A stretch of DNA of 23,872 nt from the IMG/VR virus record IMGVR_UViG_3300022744_000098, positions 1 to 23,872 of that record; one strand, written 5' to 3'. A program made the position numbers and the translations under genes. How positions within the stretch are numbered: position 1 is the stretch's first letter; the number at the start of each line of letters is the position of its first letter. The stretch comes from a virus. Shown here one piece after another: positions 2,723-17,384 of this stretch. The notes under the pieces are model-generated. The model did no database searches and had not been told where the DNA came from. It was given only the letters and a program-made list of their open reading frames with translations.

Positions 2723-3063
2723 GCTCTGCGCGCCTCGACGGCCGCCAGCGCCTCGGCCACGCTGCGCACCACCACGACGGGCGTGCCCATGGAGCCCCAC
2801 GCCGCGTGACAGGTCACCTGCCCCGCAGAGACGCGCCCCGTGGCGATCTTCAGCTCGATGCCCAGCGCCCGCCCGTCGACGAGGAGCAGCAGGTCAGGCT
2901 GCCCCGTGCGACCGATCTGCACCGGCGGGCCGTAGCCTCCGGCGTAGACGCGGGCGTATTTTCCCACGTGGCGCAGGTCGAGCAGGACCACGCCAGGGAG
3001 GGCGCCGCATGCTCGCGTCACCTCGTCCTGTAGCTGGTCTTCGGGCCTTCGAGCCTGCCTCAT
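2719..3063 (-). CDS. VRR-NUC domain nuclease
   Basis: The 114-residue protein matches the stand-alone VRR-NUC nucleases found beside phage helicases. Visible motifs are an N-terminal EDQLQDEV helix, GQPDLLLL, the ExK-type core GIELKIATGRVSAGQ, and a terminal MGTPVVVVRSVAEAL strand and helix. PD...ExK with the downstream Gln is the PD-(D/E)XK catalytic signature of this family, which cuts structured or flapped DNA. The ATG at 3063 overlaps the SF2 helicase stop (ATGA), so helicase and nuclease are translationally coupled and probably work together in replication or recombination. An upstream extension to 3306 runs antisense-like through the helicase 3' end and was rejected. Confidence 0.88.
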   Translation of the reverse strand: MRQARRPEDQLQDEVTRACGALPGVVLLDLRHVGKYARVYAGGYGPPVQIGRTGQPDLLLLVDGRALGIELKIATGRVSAGQVTCHAAWGSMGTPVVVVRSVAEALAAVEARRA

Positions 3064-4328
3064 GGGAACCTCTTCGCGACTTCTTCGTCCGCCCACCGCT
3101 TCGCCCGCTCCGGGCTCATCCGCCGGCGAGAGATCCCCACGTGTACGAGGCCCGCGTGGTACCGCGCGCGCCGCAGGTCCGCGGGCATCGCCTCGAGCTT
3201 CGCCATCCTTGCGGCCTGCTGGATCCGCCGCACCGGGAGCGCCTTCACCAGCGCGCTCACCCCGCACCGCGGGCAGACCTTCGCCCTCGGGAACACCGCC
3301 CAGCACGCCTCACACCGCGAGAAGGCGAGGCCCGCGAGCCGCTGCGTCACCGCCTCGCCCGTGAGAGACCACTCGTGCTCCACGTCAGGCGGAAGATGCT
3401 GAAACACCGCGCCGCGCACGTCGAGCACCGTGCAGTGCGCCTTGCCGGGGAAGCTACGCAGCCCGCGCCCGATGGCCTGGAGGTAGCGCCCCAGCGTGCC
3501 GAAGGCCGCGTCGAGCGCCACCACGTCTACCGAGGGCTCATCGAACCCCTCGACGAAAACCGACACGCCAACGAGCGCGTGAAGCTCCCGCCGCCGCAGG
3601 GCCACACGGAGGCGCTCGCGCTCTTTCCGCGGCGTCTCCCCGTCGATGTAGCCCGCCGGGTGTCCCGCGTCCGTGAGCCGCTCGACGGTGTACCGCGCCT
3701 CCTCGCGAGACTCGCAGAACACCAGCGCGCGCCACGCACCGGGGAGGCGGCGCAGCTCGGCCACCGCATCGCCGCGCTTCCCTTCGTCGACGGTCACGAC
3801 CATGTGAGCCGGGACGAGCGCGCCCATGGCGGTCAGCTCGCGGACCGAGGGGCCGCACACCATCGCGTCAAAGGACCCGTCGAGGCCCTGCCCGTCGCCC
3901 CGCTGCGGCGTCGCCGTGAGGCCGAGGATGCGCGCCTCGGGGTAGTCCGCGAGGATGGCCGAGACGGTGGGCGCCTCCGAGCGGTGGCATTCGTCCAGCA
4001 CCACGAGGCCCGCCGGCGGCCGTGTGCCCCTCGCGTGCAGCGTGCCGAGGCTGCACACCTGGATGCGGTGTCCAGGCTCCTCGGGGGCCCACGGCGCGAC
4101 GATGCCGCAAGGCACCCCGGCGCTACGGAGGCGGTCCGCCGTGTCTCCGACGAGCGAGTCAAGGTGCGCCGCGAAGACGACGGGGCCAGGCTCCGCGGCG
4201 AGGATGGACGCCGCCGTGTGCGTCTTGCCGGAACCGGTCGGCGTGACCATGCAGACGGCGCGGTTTCCCCGCTCCCACTCGCGGCGAACGCCATCGACGA
4301 GAGCGCGCTGGTAGGGACGCAGGCTCAC
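3060..4328 (-). CDS. SF2 DEAD/DEAH-type helicase with C-terminal zinc ribbon
   Basis: The 422-residue protein starts at a GTG (4326-4328) overlapping the previous stop. It begins with the Q-motif-like LRPYQRALVDGV, followed by Walker A TPTGSGKT (29-36), motif II DECH (112-115), motif III LTATP (137-141) and motif VI QAIGRGLRS (284-292). A C-terminal four-cysteine knuckle (C339, C342, C352, C355) resembles a zinc ribbon. This is the RecG/UvsW-like or restriction-helicase style of phage SF2 enzyme, which remodels DNA with ATP. The 4-base overlap with the VRR-NUC gene suggests a coupled helicase-nuclease pair. The frame remains open upstream to 4658, but that part overlaps two better-supported genes. 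Confidence 0.93.
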   Translation of the reverse strand: MSLRPYQRALVDGVRREWERGNRAVCMVTPTGSGKTHTAASILAAEPGPVVFAAHLDSLVGDTADRLRSAGVPCGIVAPWAPEEPGHRIQVCSLGTLHARGTRPPAGLVVLDECHRSEAPTVSAILADYPEARILGLTATPQRGDGQGLDGSFDAMVCGPSVRELTAMGALVPAHMVVTVDEGKRGDAVAELRRLPGAWRALVFCESREEARYTVERLTDAGHPAGYIDGETPRKERERLRVALRRRELHALVGVSVFVEGFDEPSVDVVALDAAFGTLGRYLQAIGRGLRSFPGKAHCTVLDVRGAVFQHLPPDVEHEWSLTGEAVTQRLAGLAFSRCEACWAVFPRAKVCPRCGVSALVKALPVRRIQQAARMAKLEAMPADLRRARYHAGLVHVGISRRRMSPERAKRWADEEVAKRFP

Positions 4329-4543
4329 ATCAGCCCGCCCTGCCCGCTGGGCTCCCGTGGCGCAGGCACCGCGCCGAGGCGCACGAGGCACGCCTCGCAC
4401 GCCGCGTGCGCCATGCCGCCGCGCGTGTAGGCTCGCGTCGCGAGCCGCTTGCACGGCGCGCCAGCCACCATGACAGAGCACCCGCCGCCGGTGCGATGGA
4501 GCGCTAGCCGTGTCTCCAGCGACGACGCCAGCCGCGCCTTCAC
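4325..4543 (-). CDS. Small Cys-containing protein, 72 aa
   Basis: The start is a GTG at 4541-4543 overlapping the previous stop (GTGA). The protein has a basic N-terminal helix (KARLASSLETRLALH) and four scattered cysteines (GGCS, APCKR, AACEACL), spaced as if to bind a metal ion. No family was recognised. Its stop overlaps the GTG of the SF2 helicase, so the two are co-translated. The same frame stays open upstream to 4786, but that stretch is antisense-like in composition and overlaps the preceding gene. Confidence 0.6.
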   Translation of the reverse strand: MKARLASSLETRLALHRTGGGCSVMVAGAPCKRLATRAYTRGGMAHAACEACLVRLGAVPAPREPSGQGGLM

Positions 4544-4758
4544 TGCGGCCTCCCGCGAGAGAGCGCGCCGGCACGCCGCGAGCCGCGCAGCGCGCTCTCT
4601 TTGTAGCGCGCAGAGCTCGTGTCCGGCGAGTAGGACCGGCGCCGCCCGTCCCTCGCACGCGCCACGCCCCAGCCGTCCAGGTCTCGCTTCGCCCAGGCGT
4701 GGAGCTCGGCGACGACGCGCCGGGCGTCCCGGCGGATCTGGTCGAGGTCGAGGTTCAT
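4540..4758 (-). CDS. Hypothetical protein, 72 aa
   Basis: The protein begins MNLDLDQIRRDARRVVAEL, a clear amphipathic helix, and continues with a basic, probably unstructured C-terminal half. The ATG at 4758 overlaps the preceding stop (ATGA, 4755-4758), and the stop overlaps the next GTG start. No family was recognised; the N-terminal helix and basic tail would fit a small nucleic-acid or protein adaptor, without direct evidence. Confidence 0.6.
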   Translation of the reverse strand: MNLDLDQIRRDARRVVAELHAWAKRDLDGWGVARARDGRRRSYSPDTSSARYKESALRGSRRAGALSRGRPQ

Positions 4759-4907
4759 TTGCACACCTCGACGCGCACGCCGTCACGCGCCCAGGCCCTC
4801 ACATGCTCGGCGGCCCGGAGGTGCGCCACGTCCTCGCGCATGCGCCAGGACCAGCACGCGCCCGTGTCCAGGTCGCGGAAGTTCACCCGCACGTAGACGG
4901 GGATCAT
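4755..4907 (-). CDS. Small hypothetical protein, 50 aa
   Basis: Reading the minus strand from the ATG at 4905-4907 gives MIPVYVRVNFRDLDTG and onward to a TGA at 4755-4757, 50 residues in total. Both ends make ATGA overlaps with flanking genes, which is the main support. The pattern is a beta-hairpin (VYVRVNF, ACWSWRM) followed by a helix (LRAAEHVRAWARDG) and a final strand (VRVEVCK), so it looks like a small folded domain. No family was recognised. Confidence 0.65.
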   Translation of the reverse strand: MIPVYVRVNFRDLDTGACWSWRMREDVAHLRAAEHVRAWARDGVRVEVCK

Positions 4908-6728: not shown

Positions 6729-7057
6729 GCAAGGAGCAACTCACTACCTTCGACGTGGTCCTCGGCGTGAACGGCCCGTGCCTGTACGTGAACGGCTATC
6801 GCATTGACGGCCCGAAGCCGTACGCAGGCAAGTTCCTCTACAGATTCACGGCGACTGCCGACGATCTCAGGGGCGCGGGACTGACTCCGAAGAGGACCGC
6901 CGAGCGCGAGGCTGCGCTGCTCGAGAGTGTGCTGCGCAACGCTCGCCGCTGGGCCGTGGACGCCCGCGAGCGCGAGGTCCTGGTGTCCTCGTCGCACCAC
7001 CTGCTGCGCGCCGTGGACCGCTACGAGGCGTGGCTCAAGGCTCAGGTGAAGCCATGA
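6725..7057 (+). CDS. Hypothetical protein, 110 aa
   Basis: The ATG at 6725 overlaps the preceding stop (ATGA). The N-terminal half is a beta-rich domain (FDVVLGVNGPCLYVNGYRI; FLYRFTATADDL), and the C-terminal half is helical with a possible surface helix (LLRAVDRYEAWLKAQ). No family was recognised. Confidence 0.7.
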   Translation: MSKEQLTTFDVVLGVNGPCLYVNGYRIDGPKPYAGKFLYRFTATADDLRGAGLTPKRTAEREAALLESVLRNARRWAVDAREREVLVSSSHHLLRAVDRYEAWLKAQVKP

Positions 7058-7197
7058 CCCCCGGCGAGATCCTCGTGGTCGAGCACAAGACGGGGCTGCT
7101 CGCCCGTGAGGACATCCCGAGCGCAGAGCGCCTGGAACTGGCGCGCCGGGTGAAGCGCACGTGGGGCGAGGCGAGGGGGCGGACATGGCGCGCCTAG
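7054..7197 (+). CDS. Small protein with a VVEHKT strand, 47 aa
   Basis: The ATG at 7054 overlaps the preceding stop (ATGA) and the frame ends with a TAG at 7195-7197, just inside the nuclease gene. The peptide starts MTPGEILVVEHKTG and continues as a basic helix. VVEHKT is the same motif as the catalytic strand of the neighbouring nuclease, and 15 bases (7078-7092 and 7200-7214) are identical between the two. It may be a remnant of an ancestral nuclease copy, or an unrelated small protein that shares the hexapeptide by chance. Confidence 0.5.
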   Translation: MTPGEILVVEHKTGLLAREDIPSAERLELARRVKRTWGEARGRTWRA

Positions 7198-8132
7198 TCG
7201 TCGAGCACAAGACGACCTCCTCAGACATCGCCCCCGGCTCCACCTACTGGCGGAAGCTGACCCTGGACACGCAGGTGTCCCAGTACCTTGGCGCGACGGA
7301 GGGCGTGGAGGGGATGCTCTACGACGTGATCCGCAAGCCCTCCCTGCGACCCTTCAAGGCGACGCCGGAGGTGGACAGGCGGTACACGAAGGCCGGCGCG
7401 CTCTACGCGAACCAGCGCGAAGCGGACGAGACGCCCGAGGAGTACGCCACTCGCCTTCGCGCGGACATCTCCGAGGACCCGAACAAGTACTACGCGAGGG
7501 GCATCATCGTGCGCCTGCCCGACGAGGCGAGGGAGGCCGCCCGCGACACGTGGCTCGTCGCGGGCTCTATCCGCGAGAGCATGCGCCTCGACGCGTGGCC
7601 GAGGAACCCCGGTAGCTGCGACGCGTACGGCCGCACGTGCGACTACTGGGCAGTTTGCGCGGGCGAGACGACCATCGCCGACGACACGCGCTTTCGCACC
7701 GCGGAGACGCCGCACGAGGAGCTCCCCGGCCTCGTGCACCGGCTGCCGTTGCTCAGTAATTCCGCCATGAGCGCCTACCGCGCATGTCCGCGGAAGTACC
7801 TCTACTCCTACGTGCAGAGGCGGCGGCCCAGCGTGACGCCGCACGCGCTGACCTTCGGCACGCTCATCCACGCGGGTCTCGAGGTGTGGTGGAGCTCCGT
7901 GGACCTCGGCGCCACGCTGGCCGCCGTGCAGGGCGCGCCGGACCCCTTCGATGTGGTGCGCGCGACGGAGCTTCTACGGGGCTACCACGCTCGGTGGGCT
8001 GAGGAGCCTATCCGCGTGCTCGCGGTGGAGAAGCCCTTCGTAGCGCCGTTGGTGAACCCGGAGACGGGCGCGGCGAGCAGGACTTTCGAGTTGGCTGGAA
8101 AGTGCGACGCGATCGCAGAGGTGGAAACATGA
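7185..8132 (+). CDS. PD-(D/E)XK exonuclease, RecB/Cas4-like, with motifs in circularly permuted order
   Basis: The 315-residue protein starts at an ATG at 7185 with AGGGGG about five bases upstream. Residues 5-10 (VVEHKT) hold the ExK motif, followed by the QVSQY motif (30-34), and a cysteine cluster (about 144-158, CDAYGRTCDYWAVC). Then come the normal N-terminal elements: LSNSAMSAYRACPRKY (190-205) and FGTLIHAGLE (224-233). The protein ends with the GKCDAI motif, whose catalytic Asp (D308) is seven residues from the C-terminus. In Cas4/AddB-type nucleases the order is LSxS, GxxxHxxLE, GxxD, ExK, QxxxY, Cys. Here it is rotated at the GxxD/ExK turn. All expected motifs are present once, so activity is plausible, and it probably supplies resection for the adjacent Sak4-like ATPase. 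Confidence 0.85.
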   Translation: MARLVVEHKTTSSDIAPGSTYWRKLTLDTQVSQYLGATEGVEGMLYDVIRKPSLRPFKATPEVDRRYTKAGALYANQREADETPEEYATRLRADISEDPNKYYARGIIVRLPDEAREAARDTWLVAGSIRESMRLDAWPRNPGSCDAYGRTCDYWAVCAGETTIADDTRFRTAETPHEELPGLVHRLPLLSNSAMSAYRACPRKYLYSYVQRRRPSVTPHALTFGTLIHAGLEVWWSSVDLGATLAAVQGAPDPFDVVRATELLRGYHARWAEEPIRVLAVEKPFVAPLVNPETGAASRTFELAGKCDAIAEVET

Positions 8133-9046
8133 ACGTCTCGACCATCAAAAAAGACTCCGCGCCCCTGCCCCCGAGGCAGAACGCGCTCTCTCACGTGCGA
8201 CGGGGCCGCATCTCCGCGCCGCTCCGCGTGCTCTGCTACGGCGCCGAGGGCGTCGGGAAGTCCACCTTCGCGGCGGGCGCTCCGCGGCCGCTCTGGCTCG
8301 GCGCCGAGGGCGGCACGGGGCACCTCGACGTGGACCGCCTGCCCGAGCCGAAGACGTGGGCCGACGTGATGTCCTCCCTCGCCGACGTGCGCCGCGAGGG
8401 ACACGACTACCGCACACTGGTCGTCGACCCGCTGGGGTGGCTGGAGCCGCTCTGCTGGGCGCAGGTCACAGGGGGCGTGGGCACCATCGAGAGCGCCGCC
8501 GGCGGCTACGGCAAGGGCTACGTGGCGGCTCACATGCTTTGGAGGCAGATGCTCCAGGAGCTCGACGCCATCTGGACGGAGCGGTCCATGGCCATCGTCC
8601 TCCTCGCTCACGCGACGATCGAGCAGCACCCGAACCCGAGCGGAGCGACGTGGCCCATGTGGCAGCCGGCGTTGCACAAGCTGCCGCGCGGGTCCTTCGC
8701 GCAGTGGGTAGACCACGTGCTGTTCGCCCAGGTGGAGACGGTGGCGCTGAAGGGCGAGGACAAGCGGACGCTCGGCCAGGCGACGGGCGTGCGCGTGCTC
8801 CACGCTGCGCCCTCGGGGGGCTGGCTGGCGAAGAGCCGCGGCCTCCCCGACGTGATGCCGCTCGCGTGGTCTTCCCTCGTCGAGGCGGAGGACCGCGCGA
8901 CGGCGATGCGCGCGGAGCTCGCCGAGCTGCTGGCAGACATGCCGGAGGACTACGCGGCGAAGGCGCGGGCGGCGGCGACGCAGCCCGGCGTGAGTCTCGA
9001 GGAGTTGGTGAACAAGGTGCGAACGAAGAAAGAGGCAAGCAAATGA
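8129..9046 (+). CDS. Sak4-like RecA-fold ATPase (AAA_24), recombination
   Basis: The 305-residue protein has Walker A GAEGVGKST (38-46), a Walker B-like strand TLVVDPLG with D100, and the sensor-like strand IVLLAHATIE. This layout matches the phage nucleotide-binding AAA_24 group, which contains Sak4 single-strand annealing proteins. Sak4 works with an ssDNA-binding protein in phage recombination, and a putative one is encoded next. The C-terminal 60 residues are helical and charged. The ATG at 8129 overlaps the nuclease stop (ATGA). I infer a recombination role; a packaging or replication ATPase cannot be excluded from sequence alone. Confidence 0.85.
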   Translation: MNVSTIKKDSAPLPPRQNALSHVRRGRISAPLRVLCYGAEGVGKSTFAAGAPRPLWLGAEGGTGHLDVDRLPEPKTWADVMSSLADVRREGHDYRTLVVDPLGWLEPLCWAQVTGGVGTIESAAGGYGKGYVAAHMLWRQMLQELDAIWTERSMAIVLLAHATIEQHPNPSGATWPMWQPALHKLPRGSFAQWVDHVLFAQVETVALKGEDKRTLGQATGVRVLHAAPSGGWLAKSRGLPDVMPLAWSSLVEAEDRATAMRAELAELLADMPEDYAAKARAAATQPGVSLEELVNKVRTKKEASK

Positions 9047-9474
9047 ACATTCCGGCAGGGTACTACCAGGGTCGAGTCGTGGCGGGCGAGGGCGCCTTCG
9101 GCGAGACGAAGAAGGGCGACGTCGAGGCGGTGATCCCCATGGTCATCACGGGCGGCGACCTCGAGGTTCCGGAGCGCGTGACGGTGCGGCTCTACTTCTC
9201 CGAGAAGGCCGAGAAATACAGCGTGGACAAGCTCCGCGCCATCGGCTGGAAGGGCGGAGACATGACCTTCGCGAACTGCCCGAACGAGGTCACCGTCGCG
9301 ATCAAGTACGAGACCTACGAGGGCGAGGAGCGCATGAAGGCCGACATCATGACCGGCCCGCAGGTGAAGCCTCTGGAGCCTGCGAGGGCGCGGGCGTTCT
9401 CTGCGCGTCTCGCGGGTCTCGTTGGCACTCCGGCGGGCGCCTCGAAGGGCGCGGGCCTCGACGGCCTGGACTGA
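9043..9474 (+). CDS. Putative ssDNA-binding protein partner of Sak4
   Basis: The 143-residue protein begins MNIPAGYYQGRVV and shows an OB-like beta pattern, with LRAIGWKGGDM and a YEGEERMKADIM strand, a combination found in phage proteins placed next to Sak4 ATPases. A disordered Ala/Gly-rich tail ends in acidic GLDGLD, as in ssDNA-binding proteins that contact partners through their C-terminus. The ATG at 9043 overlaps the preceding stop (ATGA). ssDNA binding is inferred from fold pattern and neighbourhood, not shown directly. Confidence 0.65.
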   Translation: MNIPAGYYQGRVVAGEGAFGETKKGDVEAVIPMVITGGDLEVPERVTVRLYFSEKAEKYSVDKLRAIGWKGGDMTFANCPNEVTVAIKYETYEGEERMKADIMTGPQVKPLEPARARAFSARLAGLVGTPAGASKGAGLDGLD

Positions 9475-9481
9475 GTACGCA

Positions 9482-9522
9482 GGGCCGCCGTGGTGTGCCG
9501 GGTTCGATTCCTGGCCGGCCCC
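9482..9522 (+). other. tRNA acceptor/T-arm-like minihelix
   Basis: CCGGG-TTCGATT-CCTGG (9498-9514) is a textbook T-arm, with 5-bp stem and 7-nt loop. It is followed by CCGGCCC (9515-9521), which can pair with GGGCCG at 9482-9487 as an acceptor stem of six pairs. Only nine bases separate the 5' acceptor strand from the T-arm, so D and anticodon arms are missing and there is no CCA. It lies in the only sizable gap of the operon (9475-9536), just before the ribosome site of the next gene. It could be a tRNA remnant, an attachment core or an RNA-processing signal. Confidence 0.5.
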
Positions 9523-9536
9523 CGAAGGAGAGAGAG

Positions 9537-11127: not shown

Positions 11128-11714
11128 AAGAGCGTCCCATCCTGTTCTCGGCCCCCATGGTCCGCGCCATTCTCGAGGGGCGGAAGAGCGTCACGCGGCG
11201 GATCGCGAGGCTCGGGATCACACTGTACCCGGGGGAGGAGACCGGGGCGCACGGCTCGCCCTACGGCGCGCCTTGCGATCGGCTCTGGGTGCGCGAGGCG
11301 TGGCACGCGTGCCCCCACTGCGGGCATGATCCCGGCCCTCGACGAGCCTGTCAGGTGGCCTATCGTGCTGGCGGGTGGCGTCGCGCCCCATCGGGTGCGC
11401 CGGACGACGCGGGCGAGCGCGACGATGCGGACGCGCGGCCACTGTCGCCGAAGTGCGCCGCGCATGGCTGGCGCCCCTCTATCTTCATGCCCCGCTGGGC
11501 CTCACGCATCTCGCTCGAGGTGGTCTCGGTGCGTGCGGAGCGGCTCCACGAGATCGACGACGCAGACGCGTGGCGAGAGGGCTGCACGGGCGCCCACACC
11601 TACAGCGCCCGCGACGAGTACCGCGACGGCTGGGACGACATCAACGGCAAGCGCGCGCCGTGGGATAGCAACCCGTGGGTCTGGCGCATCGAGTTCAGGA
11701 GGCTGGAACCGTGA
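11124..11714 (+). CDS. ASCH/PUA-like domain protein
   Basis: A GTG at 11124 overlaps the preceding stop and begins a 196-residue protein. KERPILFSAPMVRAILEGRK, RLWVREAWHACPHCG, RPSIFMPRWASRISLEV, the AWREG motif and SNPWVWRIEFRR are the standard landmarks of phage ASCH-type (PUA-superfamily) proteins, which in other systems recognise or process modified nucleosides or RNA. Two CxxC pairs (CPHC and a later Cys) may bind zinc. It is encoded immediately before an SNF2-like helicase and a DNA methyltransferase, which fits, without proving, a link with DNA modification. Confidence 0.8.
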   Translation: MKERPILFSAPMVRAILEGRKSVTRRIARLGITLYPGEETGAHGSPYGAPCDRLWVREAWHACPHCGHDPGPRRACQVAYRAGGWRRAPSGAPDDAGERDDADARPLSPKCAAHGWRPSIFMPRWASRISLEVVSVRAERLHEIDDADAWREGCTGAHTYSARDEYRDGWDDINGKRAPWDSNPWVWRIEFRRLEP

Positions 11715-13153
11715 AGACCATCGACATCGACGAACTGGACTCTCCACGCGAAGTGAGGGCGGACTACGAGGACTTCGTCCGCGGCAAGCTCTCGACAGTC
11801 CCGGCAACGGGATACGGCGACGTGGCGGCCGACTGGCCCCACATGTTCCCTTTCCAGCGCGACGTATGCCGGTGGGCGTTGCGGCGTGGGCGGGCCGCGG
11901 CGTTCCTCGACACGGGGCTAGGCAAGTCGCGTATCCAGCTCACGTGGGCCGACGAGGTGGCGCGACGCGAGGGCAAGCCCGTCATCATCCTGGCCCCTCT
12001 CGCGGTCGCTTCGCAGACGGTCGCCGAGGGTGCGCGTGTGGGCATCGGCGTGACGTTGTGCCGCGAGGCCGTCGACGTGCGGCCGGGCGTCAACATCATC
12101 AACTACGACCGCATGCATAAGCTCGACATGAGCCAGTTTGCCGGCGTCGTGCTGGACGAGTCGAGCATCATCAAGTCGAGCGGGAGCTCGACCCTTGCCG
12201 CGATCCTGGAAGCCTTCGCGGCCACCCCGTTCCGCCTCGCGTGCACCGCCACTCCGAGCCCGAACGACTACACCGAGCTGGGGACGCACGCCGAGTTCCT
12301 CGGCGTGTGCACGAAGGCGGAGATGCTCGCCGAGTACTTCTGCCACGATGGCGGAGAGACATCGACGTGGAGGCTCAAGGGCCACGCGCGCGAGGCGTTC
12401 TGGCGATGGGTCGCGGGGTGGGCGGCCATGGTCCGCATGCCCTCCGACCTGGGATACCCCGACGACGGGTATGCCCTCCCAGAACTGCGCATCATCTCGC
12501 ACGTCATCCCCGCCGACCATGGATCAGTGAAGGAAACGGGACTTCTGTTTGCCAACGAAGCTCGCACGCTGACCGAGCGCCGCGCCGCCAAGAAGGGCAC
12601 CATGGGCGCTCGCGTCCGGGCGTGCGCGGCGCTCGTCAACGCCGAGGCGAGCGAGCCGTGGGTCGTGTGGGCGGACCTCAACGCCGAGGGCGACGAGCTT
12701 GAGAGGGCATGCGACGACGCGATCCAGGTCGCGGGCGCCGACGACGTCGACACGAAAGAGGCGCGGCTCGTGGCGTTCGCTGAAGGGCGGTCGCGCGTGC
12801 TCGTGAGCAAGGTCAAGATCTGCGGATGGGGCCTCAACTGGCAACACTGCGCGCGCATGGCGTTCGTCGGCGTGAACGACTCCTTCGAGGCGTTCTATCA
12901 GGCCGTGCGGCGATGCTACCGCTTCGGCCAGACGCGCGAGGTCGAGGTACACGTGTTCTCGTCGGAGCTCGAGGGCGAGGTCACGAAGAACCTATCGCGC
13001 AAGCGCGACGACGCGAAGGCGATGGGGGAGGAGCTCGCGATCTGGACGCGAGACGCGGTGCAACAGAACGTGACGGGGCAGGACAGGCAAACGAACGAGT
13101 ATGCGCCGGGGTCGGAGATGCTGATCCCTGCGTGGCTGGAGGTGGGAGCATGA
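11711..13153 (+). CDS. SNF2-like SF2 helicase
   Basis: The GTG at 11711 overlaps the previous stop. The 480-residue protein has a shortened Walker A DTGLGKS (67-73), motif II DESS (149-152), TATPSPND (179-186) and a C-terminal motif VI of SNF2 style (QAVRRCYRFGQ). The DESS rather than DEAH form is usual in phage SNF2 relatives. It is translationally coupled to the DNA methyltransferase downstream, so the pair probably remodels and modifies DNA together. No restriction nuclease is fused or encoded between them, so this is not a complete restriction-modification system as seen here. Confidence 0.9.
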   Translation: MKTIDIDELDSPREVRADYEDFVRGKLSTVPATGYGDVAADWPHMFPFQRDVCRWALRRGRAAAFLDTGLGKSRIQLTWADEVARREGKPVIILAPLAVASQTVAEGARVGIGVTLCREAVDVRPGVNIINYDRMHKLDMSQFAGVVLDESSIIKSSGSSTLAAILEAFAATPFRLACTATPSPNDYTELGTHAEFLGVCTKAEMLAEYFCHDGGETSTWRLKGHAREAFWRWVAGWAAMVRMPSDLGYPDDGYALPELRIISHVIPADHGSVKETGLLFANEARTLTERRAAKKGTMGARVRACAALVNAEASEPWVVWADLNAEGDELERACDDAIQVAGADDVDTKEARLVAFAEGRSRVLVSKVKICGWGLNWQHCARMAFVGVNDSFEAFYQAVRRCYRFGQTREVEVHVFSSELEGEVTKNLSRKRDDAKAMGEELAIWTRDAVQQNVTGQDRQTNEYAPGSEMLIPAWLEVGA

Positions 13154-14103
13154 AGGTCATTACTCAGGCGATCGGGGATTCGTGGGCACTGTATCATGGG
13201 GATACGGTGGACGTGGCGCGAGGCATGCCGGACCGAAGCGTGGACTTCTCCGTCTTCTCGCCCCCGTTCGCGTCGCTCTACACCTACTCAGCAAGCGCCC
13301 GCGACCTCGGCAACGTGCGCGACGACGGCGAGTTCTTCGCCCACTACGACTACCTGATCGCCGAGACCGCCCGCGTCATGCGCCCCGGACGCCTCGTCGC
13401 GATCCACTGCATGACCATGCCGACATCGAAGGAGCGCGACGGCTACATCGGACTGCGCGACTTCCGAGGCGACATCATTCGCGCATACCAGAAACACGGC
13501 TTCATCTTCCACTCGGAGGTGTGCATCTGGAAGGATCCGGTCACGGCCATGCAGCGTACCAAGGCGCTCGGGCTCCTGCACAAGACCATCCGCAAAGACT
13601 CCGCCATGAGCCGGCAGGGGCTGGCCGACTACATGGTCATCATGCGGACGCCTGGCACCAACGAGACCCCGATCGCGCACACGCACGAAGGGTTCCCGGT
13701 GGAGCGGTGGCAGCGGTACGCGAGCGCGGTGTGGGCAACGCGAGGGCCCGACGACGACGAGGGCTTCGCGACCATCCTCGGGACCACGGATCCGCGCGAC
13801 GACTCGAGCACCATCAACCCGAGCGACACCCTGCAATACCGCAGCGCTCGCGAGCACGACGACGAGCGCCACATCTGCCCGTTGCAACTCGGCGTCATCC
13901 GGCGATGCATCCGACTCTGGACGAACCCGGGCGATGTTGTGTGGTCTCCGTTCGCCGGCATCGGCAGTGAGGGCTACGTGGCGATCCAGGAGGGGCGGCG
14001 CTTCGTGGGCGCCGAGCTGAAGCGGAGCTACTACGAGCAGGCCGCGCGCAACCTCATGTCCGCCAAGCCTCCGCAGGCCAGCCTCTTCGCGGGGCTCGCA
14101 TGA
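13150..14103 (+). CDS. DNA methyltransferase, beta-class (N6-adenine or N4-cytosine)
   Basis: The 317-residue protein carries motif IV SPPF (37-40) near the N-terminus and the SAM-binding FAGIGS (268-273) near the C-terminus, giving the IV...I order of beta-class amino-methyltransferases. The SPPF form is more typical of N4-cytosine or some N6-adenine enzymes, so the base is left open. The middle region (about 110-230) would hold the target-recognition domain, here with RYASAVWATRG and many charged residues. The ATG at 13150 overlaps the helicase stop (ATGA). It probably protects phage DNA from host restriction or sets a regulatory methyl mark. Confidence 0.93.
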   Translation: MKVITQAIGDSWALYHGDTVDVARGMPDRSVDFSVFSPPFASLYTYSASARDLGNVRDDGEFFAHYDYLIAETARVMRPGRLVAIHCMTMPTSKERDGYIGLRDFRGDIIRAYQKHGFIFHSEVCIWKDPVTAMQRTKALGLLHKTIRKDSAMSRQGLADYMVIMRTPGTNETPIAHTHEGFPVERWQRYASAVWATRGPDDDEGFATILGTTDPRDDSSTINPSDTLQYRSAREHDDERHICPLQLGVIRRCIRLWTNPGDVVWSPFAGIGSEGYVAIQEGRRFVGAELKRSYYEQAARNLMSAKPPQASLFAGLA

Positions 14104-14159: not shown

Positions 14160-14714
14160 ATGCCGATCCGACCTGAGCAGCGCCGCCTCTACCCGCCGCC
14201 GGCCGAGTGGCGCAAGATCCGCAAAGCCATCCTGGAGCGCGCGGGCAACGCGTGCGAGTGCCGCGGGGAGTGCGGGCACGAGCACGACGGCGGGGCGGCG
14301 TGCGAGGGCGACGGCCGATGCCTCGCGCCTCACGGCCAGACGCTGCACCGCTACGAGTACGATCGCGTCCGCCCTGTCGGCTGGATCGACACCTGGGACA
14401 CCGAGCCCGACTCGGGCGCGGACCTCGAGGCATGCGGCGTCACGCTGCGGCGCCGCGCCCTCGTTCGCGTCGTCCTCACGATCTCCCATCGCGACCACGA
14501 CCCGACGCACAACGACGAGGCGAACCTGCGCGCGCTCTGTCAGAGGTGCCAGGGACCGGGACGCGCTCCGGCGCCGCATGTTCGGAGGTGCGCCGTGAGC
14601 GAGACGTGTCCGAACTGCAGGGGGACCGGCGACACGTGGGAGCATGACCTGGATGGGGACTACGATCGCGTGCCGTGTCGCGAGTGCGACGGCACCGGGG
14701 AGGTGGAGGAATGA
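14160..14714 (+). CDS. HNH endonuclease-like protein, probably frameshifted near its CxxCH motif
   Basis: The ATG at 14160 follows GGGAGG by six bases. The protein shows EWRKIRKAILERAGNACE, paired cysteines, LTISHRDHD with the catalytic His (H110), N122 and LCQRC (126-130), the layout of phage HNH proteins. In relatives LCQRC is followed by His; here CAG gives Gln, and from 14551 the +1 frame has the coding bias (RDRDALRRRMFGGAP, stop at 14598). So the gene seems to have gained one base or lost two at 14549-14551. As sequenced the frame runs into the next gene, giving 184 residues. Nuclease activity is doubtful in this form. Confidence 0.65.
   Translation: MPIRPEQRRLYPPPAEWRKIRKAILERAGNACECRGECGHEHDGGAACEGDGRCLAPHGQTLHRYEYDRVRPVGWIDTWDTEPDSGADLEACGVTLRRRALVRVVLTISHRDHDPTHNDEANLRALCQRCQGPGRAPAPHVRRCAVSETCPNCRGTGDTWEHDLDGDYDRVPCRECDGTGEVEE
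14595..14714 (+). CDS. DnaJ-type zinc-finger mini protein, 39 aa
   Basis: A GTG at 14595 with CGGAGG seven bases upstream starts a 39-residue protein that has CPNCRGTG and CRECDGTG, two CxxCxGxG zinc knuckles. It ends in an ATGA overlap (14711-14714). The start overlaps the predicted end of the frame-corrected HNH gene (GTGA, 14595-14598), which supports it as a separate gene. Function is unknown; it is a second, shorter relative of the protein at 5895-6143. Confidence 0.6.
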   Translation: MSETCPNCRGTGDTWEHDLDGDYDRVPCRECDGTGEVEE

Positions 14715-16263: not shown

Positions 16264-16509
16264 CTACTTCGCCACCAGCGCCCGGACCGCCGCGTCCTTC
16301 GCCTCGAGGAGCTTCCTCAGTGCGACCGTGCGCTCGGGGTTGCGGGGCAGCGTGGCGACGATGCGCTCGGCGAGCTCGCCGAAGGGCTTGCTCGCGGCCT
16401 GGAGCATCGGCGGGAGGTGCTCGTAGGCGAAGAACTGCATGATGTGCTCGGCCGGGGGAGCGGTCGGGGCGGTGAAGGGGACGTCGTCCGCGGTGCGAGG
16501 GATGCTCAT
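16264..16509 (-). CDS. Acb2/Tad1-like small helical-hairpin protein (candidate anti-CBASS sponge)
   Basis: The 81-residue product starts at the ATG at 16509, which overlaps the endolysin stop and has GGAG eight bases upstream; an earlier in-frame start at 16557 is less likely. After a Pro/Ala-rich N-terminus (1-24) comes MQFFAYEHLPPML, LAERIVATLP and ERTVALRKLLEAKDAAVRAL. This pattern is shared by a widespread phage family that resembles the Acb2/Tad1 helical hairpin, which forms oligomers that bind cyclic nucleotides and block CBASS or Thoeris defence. The match is from memory of the family style, so the function is provisional. A late position is compatible with an inhibitor expressed with lysis genes. 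Confidence 0.55.
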   Translation of the reverse strand: MSIPRTADDVPFTAPTAPPAEHIMQFFAYEHLPPMLQAASKPFGELAERIVATLPRNPERTVALRKLLEAKDAAVRALVAK

Positions 16510-17384
16510 GCGTGAGGCTCCGGGGTTGGTGTCACCGTCGTGGCGACTGACCTGCAACTATGGTTATCATAGCAACCACGTCCTTCCGGTTGCCCGGCCG
16601 CGCGCTCGTCCAGGCTGGCCTCCACCACGTGCGTCCCATGCACCGGCCCGCCCATGTCGGGCTCCTCGCCCGGGAGCCCCAGGAGCGCACGGAAGGTCTC
16701 GAGCCCGCCGTTGACCAGGTTGAGGTCCACGTAGCCCGAGACGCCCGGGACCGTGTTCCCGGGCAGCCCCGGCCCGCCGCCGGAGTACTGCCACACCGCC
16801 GCCGCGGGCCAGGGCGGGACCGCCAGCGGGCGATCGGCGTCCGTCGGGCACCACGCCCCCACGTGCGAGTACTGCGCTACCCATAGCGGCCAGCGCGCGA
16901 GCTCTGCGACGTGACGCGCCCCGCGCCACTCGGAGCCGTACACGGGCGCCGTGTAGATCCCCGCGCGGTAGCCGCGGGCCTCGATGCGCTCGCACCACGC
17001 GACGATCCACTCGACGTACGCGTCCGGCCCTCCGAGGCGCGCGGCCGCGCCGCGTTCCTCGAGGTCGAGCCAGATCGGCAGCTCGCCGGGATCGTCCCCG
17101 AGCTCGCACGCGCGGTCGATGGCGTAGTCGGCCTGCTCGAGCGCCGCGCCTCGCACGCGAGCAAAGTGGTAGACGCCGACCGAGAGCCCCGCCATGCGCG
17201 CGCCCTCGATGTGCTCGCGGGTTCGCGGATCTGGGCTCCGCGCCTCGGAGGCCTTCGCGACGACCCCCCGAATCCGGCCCGGCGGACGCCCGAAGGCGGC
17301 TCCGGGGTCGTGCTCGACGACGCGGTCCCAGTCGATGCCCCGCTGCACGCTCGACACGTCGAGGAGGTAGATGCGCTCGGTCAC
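16506..17384 (-). CDS. GH25 family lysozyme, endolysin
   Basis: The 292-residue protein has the GH25 fold landmarks. DVSSVQRGIDW is at the N-terminus (D9), followed by VYHFAR (71-76), IWLDLEE with the catalytic pair D107/E109, GIYTAPVYG (142-150), LWVAQY (167-172) and AVWQY (196-200), ending in GYVDLNL (D220). It would cleave the beta-1,4 bond between MurNAc and GlcNAc in the host wall. There is no signal peptide, so release probably needs a holin. The C-terminal 60 residues are Gly/Cys-rich and may be a cell-wall-binding tail. A GTG start overlaps the previous stop (17381-17384). Confidence 0.93.
   Translation of the reverse strand: MTERIYLLDVSSVQRGIDWDRVVEHDPGAAFGRPPGRIRGVVAKASEARSPDPRTREHIEGARMAGLSVGVYHFARVRGAALEQADYAIDRACELGDDPGELPIWLDLEERGAAARLGGPDAYVEWIVAWCERIEARGYRAGIYTAPVYGSEWRGARHVAELARWPLWVAQYSHVGAWCPTDADRPLAVPPWPAAAVWQYSGGGPGLPGNTVPGVSGYVDLNLVNGGLETFRALLGLPGEEPDMGGPVHGTHVVEASLDERAAGQPEGRGCYDNHSCRSVATTVTPTPEPHA

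Follow-up and report, generated by a model that had tools for sequence, protein, structure and literature searches.

A circularly permuted Cas4/AddB-like exonuclease gene in a phage recombination operon and its permuted relatives

The gene at 7185-8132 of the window (the whole 23,872-nucleotide stretch of viral DNA analysed here) can be assigned with high confidence to the phage Cas4/AddB-like PD-(D/E)XK exonuclease family (phrog_1218) as a working natural circular permutant, the activity of which is predicted. It is a real and conserved gene, very probably encodes an active enzyme, and belongs to a recurrent set of permuted genes. The interpretation as a circular permutant, which had been put forward in a first-pass annotation of the sequence, is supported by the profile alignments, the predicted structure and the relatives described below.

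Organization of the nuclease gene

The 315-aa ORF lies on the plus strand, and its start, stop and motif order were all verified in the sequence of the window. It reads MARLVVEHKTT...QVSQY...C..C..C...HEELPGLVHRLPLLSNSAMSAYRACPRKY...FGTLIHAGLE...GKCDAIAEVET followed by the stop codon, with the ExK motif first and the GxxD motif last, as the first-pass annotation had described. The good ribosome site that it noted corresponds to the GAGGGGG sequence listed in Table 1, and the overlap of the stop with the next gene is likewise present: the TGA (8130-8132) of the nuclease overlaps the ATG (8129-8131) of a Sak4-like gene. For comparison with relatives, the domain was split into the blocks N1 (Cys, FGxxxH helices), N2 (GY..RW to GxxD) and C (ExK to Cys triplet). 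The window protein has the order C-N1-N2, designated type A, and the start codon lies a few residues ahead of the ExK strand in other intact type A relatives too. E7/K9 of the ExK strand are invariant in type A wherever the residue is present, and Q30-x3-Y34 is invariant across all three block orders found, truncated contigs aside. The N1 block contains the fourth cysteine, Cys201 (7785-7787), and His229 (7869-7871), and both the C and the H are invariant in the permuted rows of the alignment. The N2 block contains E282 (8028-8030) and the catalytic D308 (8106-8108); the D is invariant and is placed in the model strand E297-313.

Table 1. Features of the nuclease gene and of the two genes that follow it
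Feature	Position	Strand	Evidence
Probable ribosome binding site GAGGGGG, 5 nt upstream of ATG 7185	7173..7179	+	sequence
Circularly permuted PD-(D/E)XK exonuclease, order C-N1-N2 (type A)	7185..8132	+	phrog_1218/PF12705 swapped blocks; AF2
ExK strand VVEHKT (E7, K9), now the N-terminal strand	7197..7214	+	model strand E2-11
QVSQY, Q30-x3-Y34: QxxxY motif of RecB/Cas4-type nucleases	7272..7286	+	conservation
Cys145, Cys152, Cys158: three of four presumed Fe-S cysteines	7617..7658	+	kept in all permuted sequences
Junction: old C-terminus HEEL + PGLVHRL, then old N-terminus	7713..7745	+	linker 7 aa
N1 block (LSNSAMSAYRACPRKY ... FGTLIHAGLEVWW), normally N-terminal	7746..7901	+	HMM match, E 7e-22
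N2 block (DPFDVVRATELLRGYHARW ... VEKPF ... LAGKCDAI), now the C-terminal strand	7941..8117	+	HMM match, E 1e-28
Sak4-like single-strand annealing ATPase (AAA_24)	8129..9046	+	PF13479 E 2.5e-37, phrog_124 E 1e-34
Small protein in the SSB-like slot of relatives	9043..9474	+	phmmer; position as annotated SSB of Tunturi_2

Homology to the canonical family

The whole window protein matches phrog_1218 with E 1.6e-23, in two stretches of swapped order: residues 187-313 align to profile positions 7-150 and residues 5-162 to positions 157-333. The second of these matches is also obtained with the N-half alone (E = 5e-6), and separate alignment of the halves, a check proposed in the first-pass annotation, thus places both of them in the canonical family with their order exchanged. 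The PF12705 match is limited to the C-terminal part of the protein (190-311 on 2-132). Two canonical phage proteins, P0005 and P0006, align to phrog_1218 in one continuous stretch. The two swapped blocks locate the break at about profile position 150-157, and alignments to canonical relatives position the cut exactly between ...GKCDAIAEVET and MARLVVEHKTT..., where canonical proteins have the beta-turn that links the GxxD and ExK strands. They agree with the earlier claim that the chain is cut precisely in this turn. The fusion of the old C-terminus to the old N-terminus by a short linker, also claimed there, was found as well, and the linker comprises about 7 residues.

The catalytic D, ExK, H and QxxxY residues are all present in the window protein (D308, E7/K9, H229, Q30/Y34) and conserved in the family. 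They do not follow the canonical linear order of H helix, GxxD, ExK, QxxxY and Cys cluster; the order found is ExK, QxxxY, Cys, H helix and GxxD, which is a circular permutation. The protein therefore consists of two halves, each homologous to a part of the canonical protein, which stand in exchanged order and are joined at the natural ends.

Predicted structure

AlphaFold2 gave confident models for the window protein (pLDDT 96.8, pTM 0.90) and for the canonical relative L009 (pLDDT 95.4, pTM 0.89). The two models share a common core fold with the same helices and strands, the order of which is rotated. The window model runs from E2-11 (ExK) through to E297-313 (GxxD), and the L009 model from H10-18 through E120-136 (GxxD) and E142-150 (ExK) on to the end. 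The structure prediction, which the first-pass annotation had called for, thus yields a single confident domain with the canonical secondary structure rotated, and the two catalytic strands form the two chain ends in the model, as had been anticipated. The AlphaFold2 alignment contained the canonical halves as separate rows, and the docking of the halves rests on the within-chain prediction and on the permuted rows, of which 21 are type A and 5 are others.

Because the chain appears still to fold into the canonical domain, D308 in the last strand should sit beside E7/K9 in the first strand. The model thus predicts that E7/K9 and D308 meet in one active site, which H229, E282, Q30 and Y34 would complete, while Cys145/152/158/201 would complete one Fe-S cluster. 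The two halves could instead act in trans as swapped dimers and not within one chain; T7 endonuclease I is an example of a PD-(D/E)XK enzyme with domain swapping. However, the monomer is predicted with very high confidence (pTM 0.90) and the length of the linker equals that of the natural ends, which makes such an arrangement improbable. Assembly of the active site within one chain is preferred.

Foldseek, which aligns structures in sequence order, matched the canonical model to AdnA/B, AddB, the Cas4-family ACE1, RecE and MGME1 with E down to 4e-8 and prob 1.0. The best match of the permuted model was AddB with E 0.013 (TM 0.25-0.28), and most of its matches in the viral library span about 150 columns, which corresponds to one half. 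Such poor sequential matches are what the permutation predicts.

Permuted relatives

About 200 loci were gathered from IMG/VR by profile scans and from one scan of genomes, and the block order of every ORF was assigned by HMM. The distinct sequences comprise 60 canonical (N1-N2-C), 23 type A (C-N1-N2, window included) and 30 of the order N2-C-N1, proportions that are biased because later scans used permuted queries. About a quarter of the loci were permuted in the C-half scan, the query alignment of which contained both orders. In 29 of the 30 N2-C-N1 sequences, designated type B, the cut follows the FGxxxH helix; in the remaining one, L132, it lies one helix later. Both halves are located in one ORF in the 23 distinct type A and the 30 other permuted sequences. 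In the untruncated type A genes, the start codon precedes the ExK strand by a few residues and the stop codon soon follows the GxxD strand, although most of the encoded proteins share only about 42-57% identity with the window protein. The search for homologues of the same order, suggested in the first-pass annotation, therefore returned 22 other distinct type A sequences on other viral contigs. What the annotation had missed is the recurrence: the permutation is found again with two or more further cut points.

Tunturi_1 and Tunturi_2, cultured phages of Acidobacteriota, carry the type B form. Their permuted protein is annotated simply as 'exonuclease', and a text search of the Tunturi phage paper (PMC11924767) gave no reference to a permuted protein. 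The second profile scan of genome contigs yielded three loci, including a type B gene in a Myxococcota MAG (L110). No loci were obtained in the first profile scan of genome contigs, no matches in one scan with the Tunturi protein as a query, and no match to a type B protein on plasmids; the collection contains no close relative of L132. The type B nuclease of L110, at 4000-4800, is located on a Myxococcota/Deltaproteobacteria MAG contig and possibly belongs to a prophage. At 233-1243 of L184, the N1 and C blocks lie in two adjoining ORFs, which may represent a nuclease that is split or frameshifted.

The window comes from one metagenomic virus record, and an assembly or join error might have swapped the halves of a canonical gene in its contig. 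The fusion, however, keeps the reading frame, and the gene has a ribosome site and a stop that overlaps the next gene. The same order occurs in the 22 other distinct type A sequences, identical type A sequences were recovered from separate metagenomes (for example L016/L017/L018 and L114/L115), and cultured phages bear a related permutation. Since independent contigs share the order, an error of this kind is ruled out for practical purposes and its probability is negligible.

Conservation and presumed function

The residues C19, H47, E105, D131, E146/K148, Q169/Y173 and C288/C295/C301 (L009 numbering) are retained wherever a permuted sequence covers the position, with the exception of the ExK motif in 20 type B rows, where D replaces E146. 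Pairwise dN/dS (NG86) is 0.04-0.21 in seven permuted pairs of relatives. Cas4/AddB-type enzymes bind one Fe-S cluster through one N-terminal and three C-terminal cysteines. The window protein displays this four-Cys pattern, with Cys201 before the H helix and Cys145/152/158 ending the C block, and the pattern is invariant in the permuted rows. Judged by the sequence, the window protein is likely to be a metal-dependent exonuclease and to hold a putative Fe-S cluster.

The window gene might also be a decaying or inactive relic of a permuted gene, given that it is a single sequence and the dN/dS figures come from its relatives. All catalytic and Cys residues are nevertheless kept, the relatives are under purifying selection, and frame and operon are intact. 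A relic is thus highly improbable, and the gene appears to be functional rather than broken, as had been stated in the first-pass annotation.

Number and origin of the permutations

Block order changes 6 times by parsimony in a tree of 102 rows. AU tests on 60 rows rejected one clade for all permuted sequences (p = 4e-5), for type B with L132 (p = 0.0015) and for type A with L132 (p = 0.003); type A alone (p = 0.15) and type B without L132 (p = 0.51) were not rejected as clades. Types A and B as one clade, with L132 left out, were rejected as well (p = 0.003). L132, a single contig, is placed among canonical sequences. These results speak against one permutation in a common ancestor with a later shift of the cut point. 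Such a history is compatible with two further tests, in which a clade of types A and B was not rejected on 50 rows under a mixture model (p = 0.37) and one clade gave p = 0.09 on 102 rows with L132 included. We regard it as rather unlikely, yet deserving of consideration. The trees point to at least two independent permutations and most probably to three, of which that of L132 rests on one contig.

In the window protein, a linker of 7 aa separates HxEL, the final conserved residues of the C block, from the N1 block; its median length is 11 in type A and 8 in type B. The canonical C-tail has a median of 7 and the canonical N-head of 4.5. The permuted linker thus approximates canonical tail plus head, which indicates that the natural ends were joined end to end. 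We propose that a tandem duplication followed by the loss of both outer parts would have given an in-frame fusion with new ends. In the window gene the natural ends have been fused, and the chain has been opened anew in the turn that connects the catalytic strands. No duplication remnants were detected beside the permuted genes, where tblastn gave only weak chance-level matches. A small ORF just upstream of the nuclease gene (7054-7197, plus strand, MTPGEILVVEHKTGLLARED...) repeats VVEHKT (7075-7092), with 15 bases identical to the nuclease start. It was rejected as a duplication remnant: it lies in another frame and is absent upstream of the other permuted loci scanned.

The N-terminal and C-terminal cysteines would bind one Fe-S cluster, and the natural ends would therefore already be close to each other. 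We propose that this cluster acts as a 'staple' that made permutation easy: by holding the natural termini adjacent, it would ease in-frame fusion and later truncation. Overall, we lean slightly towards a recurrent permutation with at least three independent events, three cut points and the same join, brought about because the Fe-S cluster staples the natural termini.

Operon and phage neighbourhood

The Sak4 gene is located downstream of the nuclease in 22 of 23 type A, 25 of 26 type B and 51 of 56 canonical loci, and also in the L132 locus. Relatives of the 9043..9474 protein, detected by phmmer, lie downstream of the nuclease in 22 of 23 type A loci; the protein matches no Pfam family. The SSB-like gene often comes next after Sak4, and it is annotated as SSB in the Tunturi phages. 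Since permuted and canonical loci have the same neighbours, the permuted gene fills the canonical operon slot. Cas4/AddB/lambda-type systems provide the basis for a role in end resection that feeds single strands to an annealase. By analogy, the nuclease probably resects DNA ends and supplies single strands to the Sak4 annealase. The three genes would then form a recombination module consisting of an end-resecting exonuclease, a Sak4 annealase/ATPase and an SSB-like protein.

Several other features were observed in the same phage. The sequence GTGTGCCGGGTTCGATTCCTGGCCGGC at 9490-9525 (plus strand) resembles a tRNA T-arm and 3' end and might be an attachment-site core; neither ARAGORN nor Rfam detected a tRNA there. 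An N6/N4 DNA methylase gene (13132-14103, plus strand, PF01555 E 2e-17) adjoins a SNF2-like helicase ORF (11675-13153), and a 184-aa protein (14160-14714, plus strand) carries a DnaJ-like CxxCxGxG zinc motif in its tail. A D5-type primase/helicase (295-1986), a DEAD/ResIII-type helicase (3063-4328) and a glycosyl hydrolase family 25 endolysin-like protein (16509-17384) are encoded on the minus strand.

Significance and comparison with known systems

No report of circular permutation in this PD-(D/E)XK, AddB or Cas4 family was found in the full-text literature searched, which took in few subscription journals, in line with the remark in the first-pass annotation that no natural permutant of this phage family is known to have been described. 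Permuted nucleases are under-annotated because sequential profile and structure searches see one half at a time. Natural enzyme permutants are uncommon, and a nuclease cut between its two catalytic strands is striking. The canonical and differently permuted forms, found in one operon slot of related phages, are a ready set for testing the constraints that termini, folding order and metal clusters impose on an enzyme. Recurrent permutation, if true, makes this nuclease family a natural experiment in protein topology. Engineered permutants whose termini lie at the active site could be of practical use.

Circularly permuted phage DNA methyltransferases are known (PMC7824862). These other natural permutants are phage DNA enzymes like the window protein, but their fold differs. 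A close comparison is the exonuclease of the Tunturiibacter phages Tunturi_1 and Tunturi_2 (XJP11549.1, XOB77130.1). It shows the same C-to-N fusion and the same residues, and is closely followed by Sak4 and SSB, as is the window nuclease. Its new ends lie past the FGxxxH helix (type B), whereas the window protein is of type A. The phrog_1218 exonucleases of actinophages and Pseudomonas phage PMBT14, designated 'Cas4-family' or 'RecB-like', share all motifs, the four cysteines, size and neighbourhood with the window protein; their order is the canonical N1-N2-C, in contrast to C-N1-N2 in the window. PF12705 PDDEXK_1, AddB, AdnA/B, the Cas4-family ACE1 (9iab), RecE and MGME1 represent the fold family of the canonical relative and have the H, D, ExK and QxxxY motifs in common with the window family, whereas the solved structures of AddB, AdnA/B, ACE1, RecE and MGME1 match the permuted model only poorly at best when aligned sequentially.
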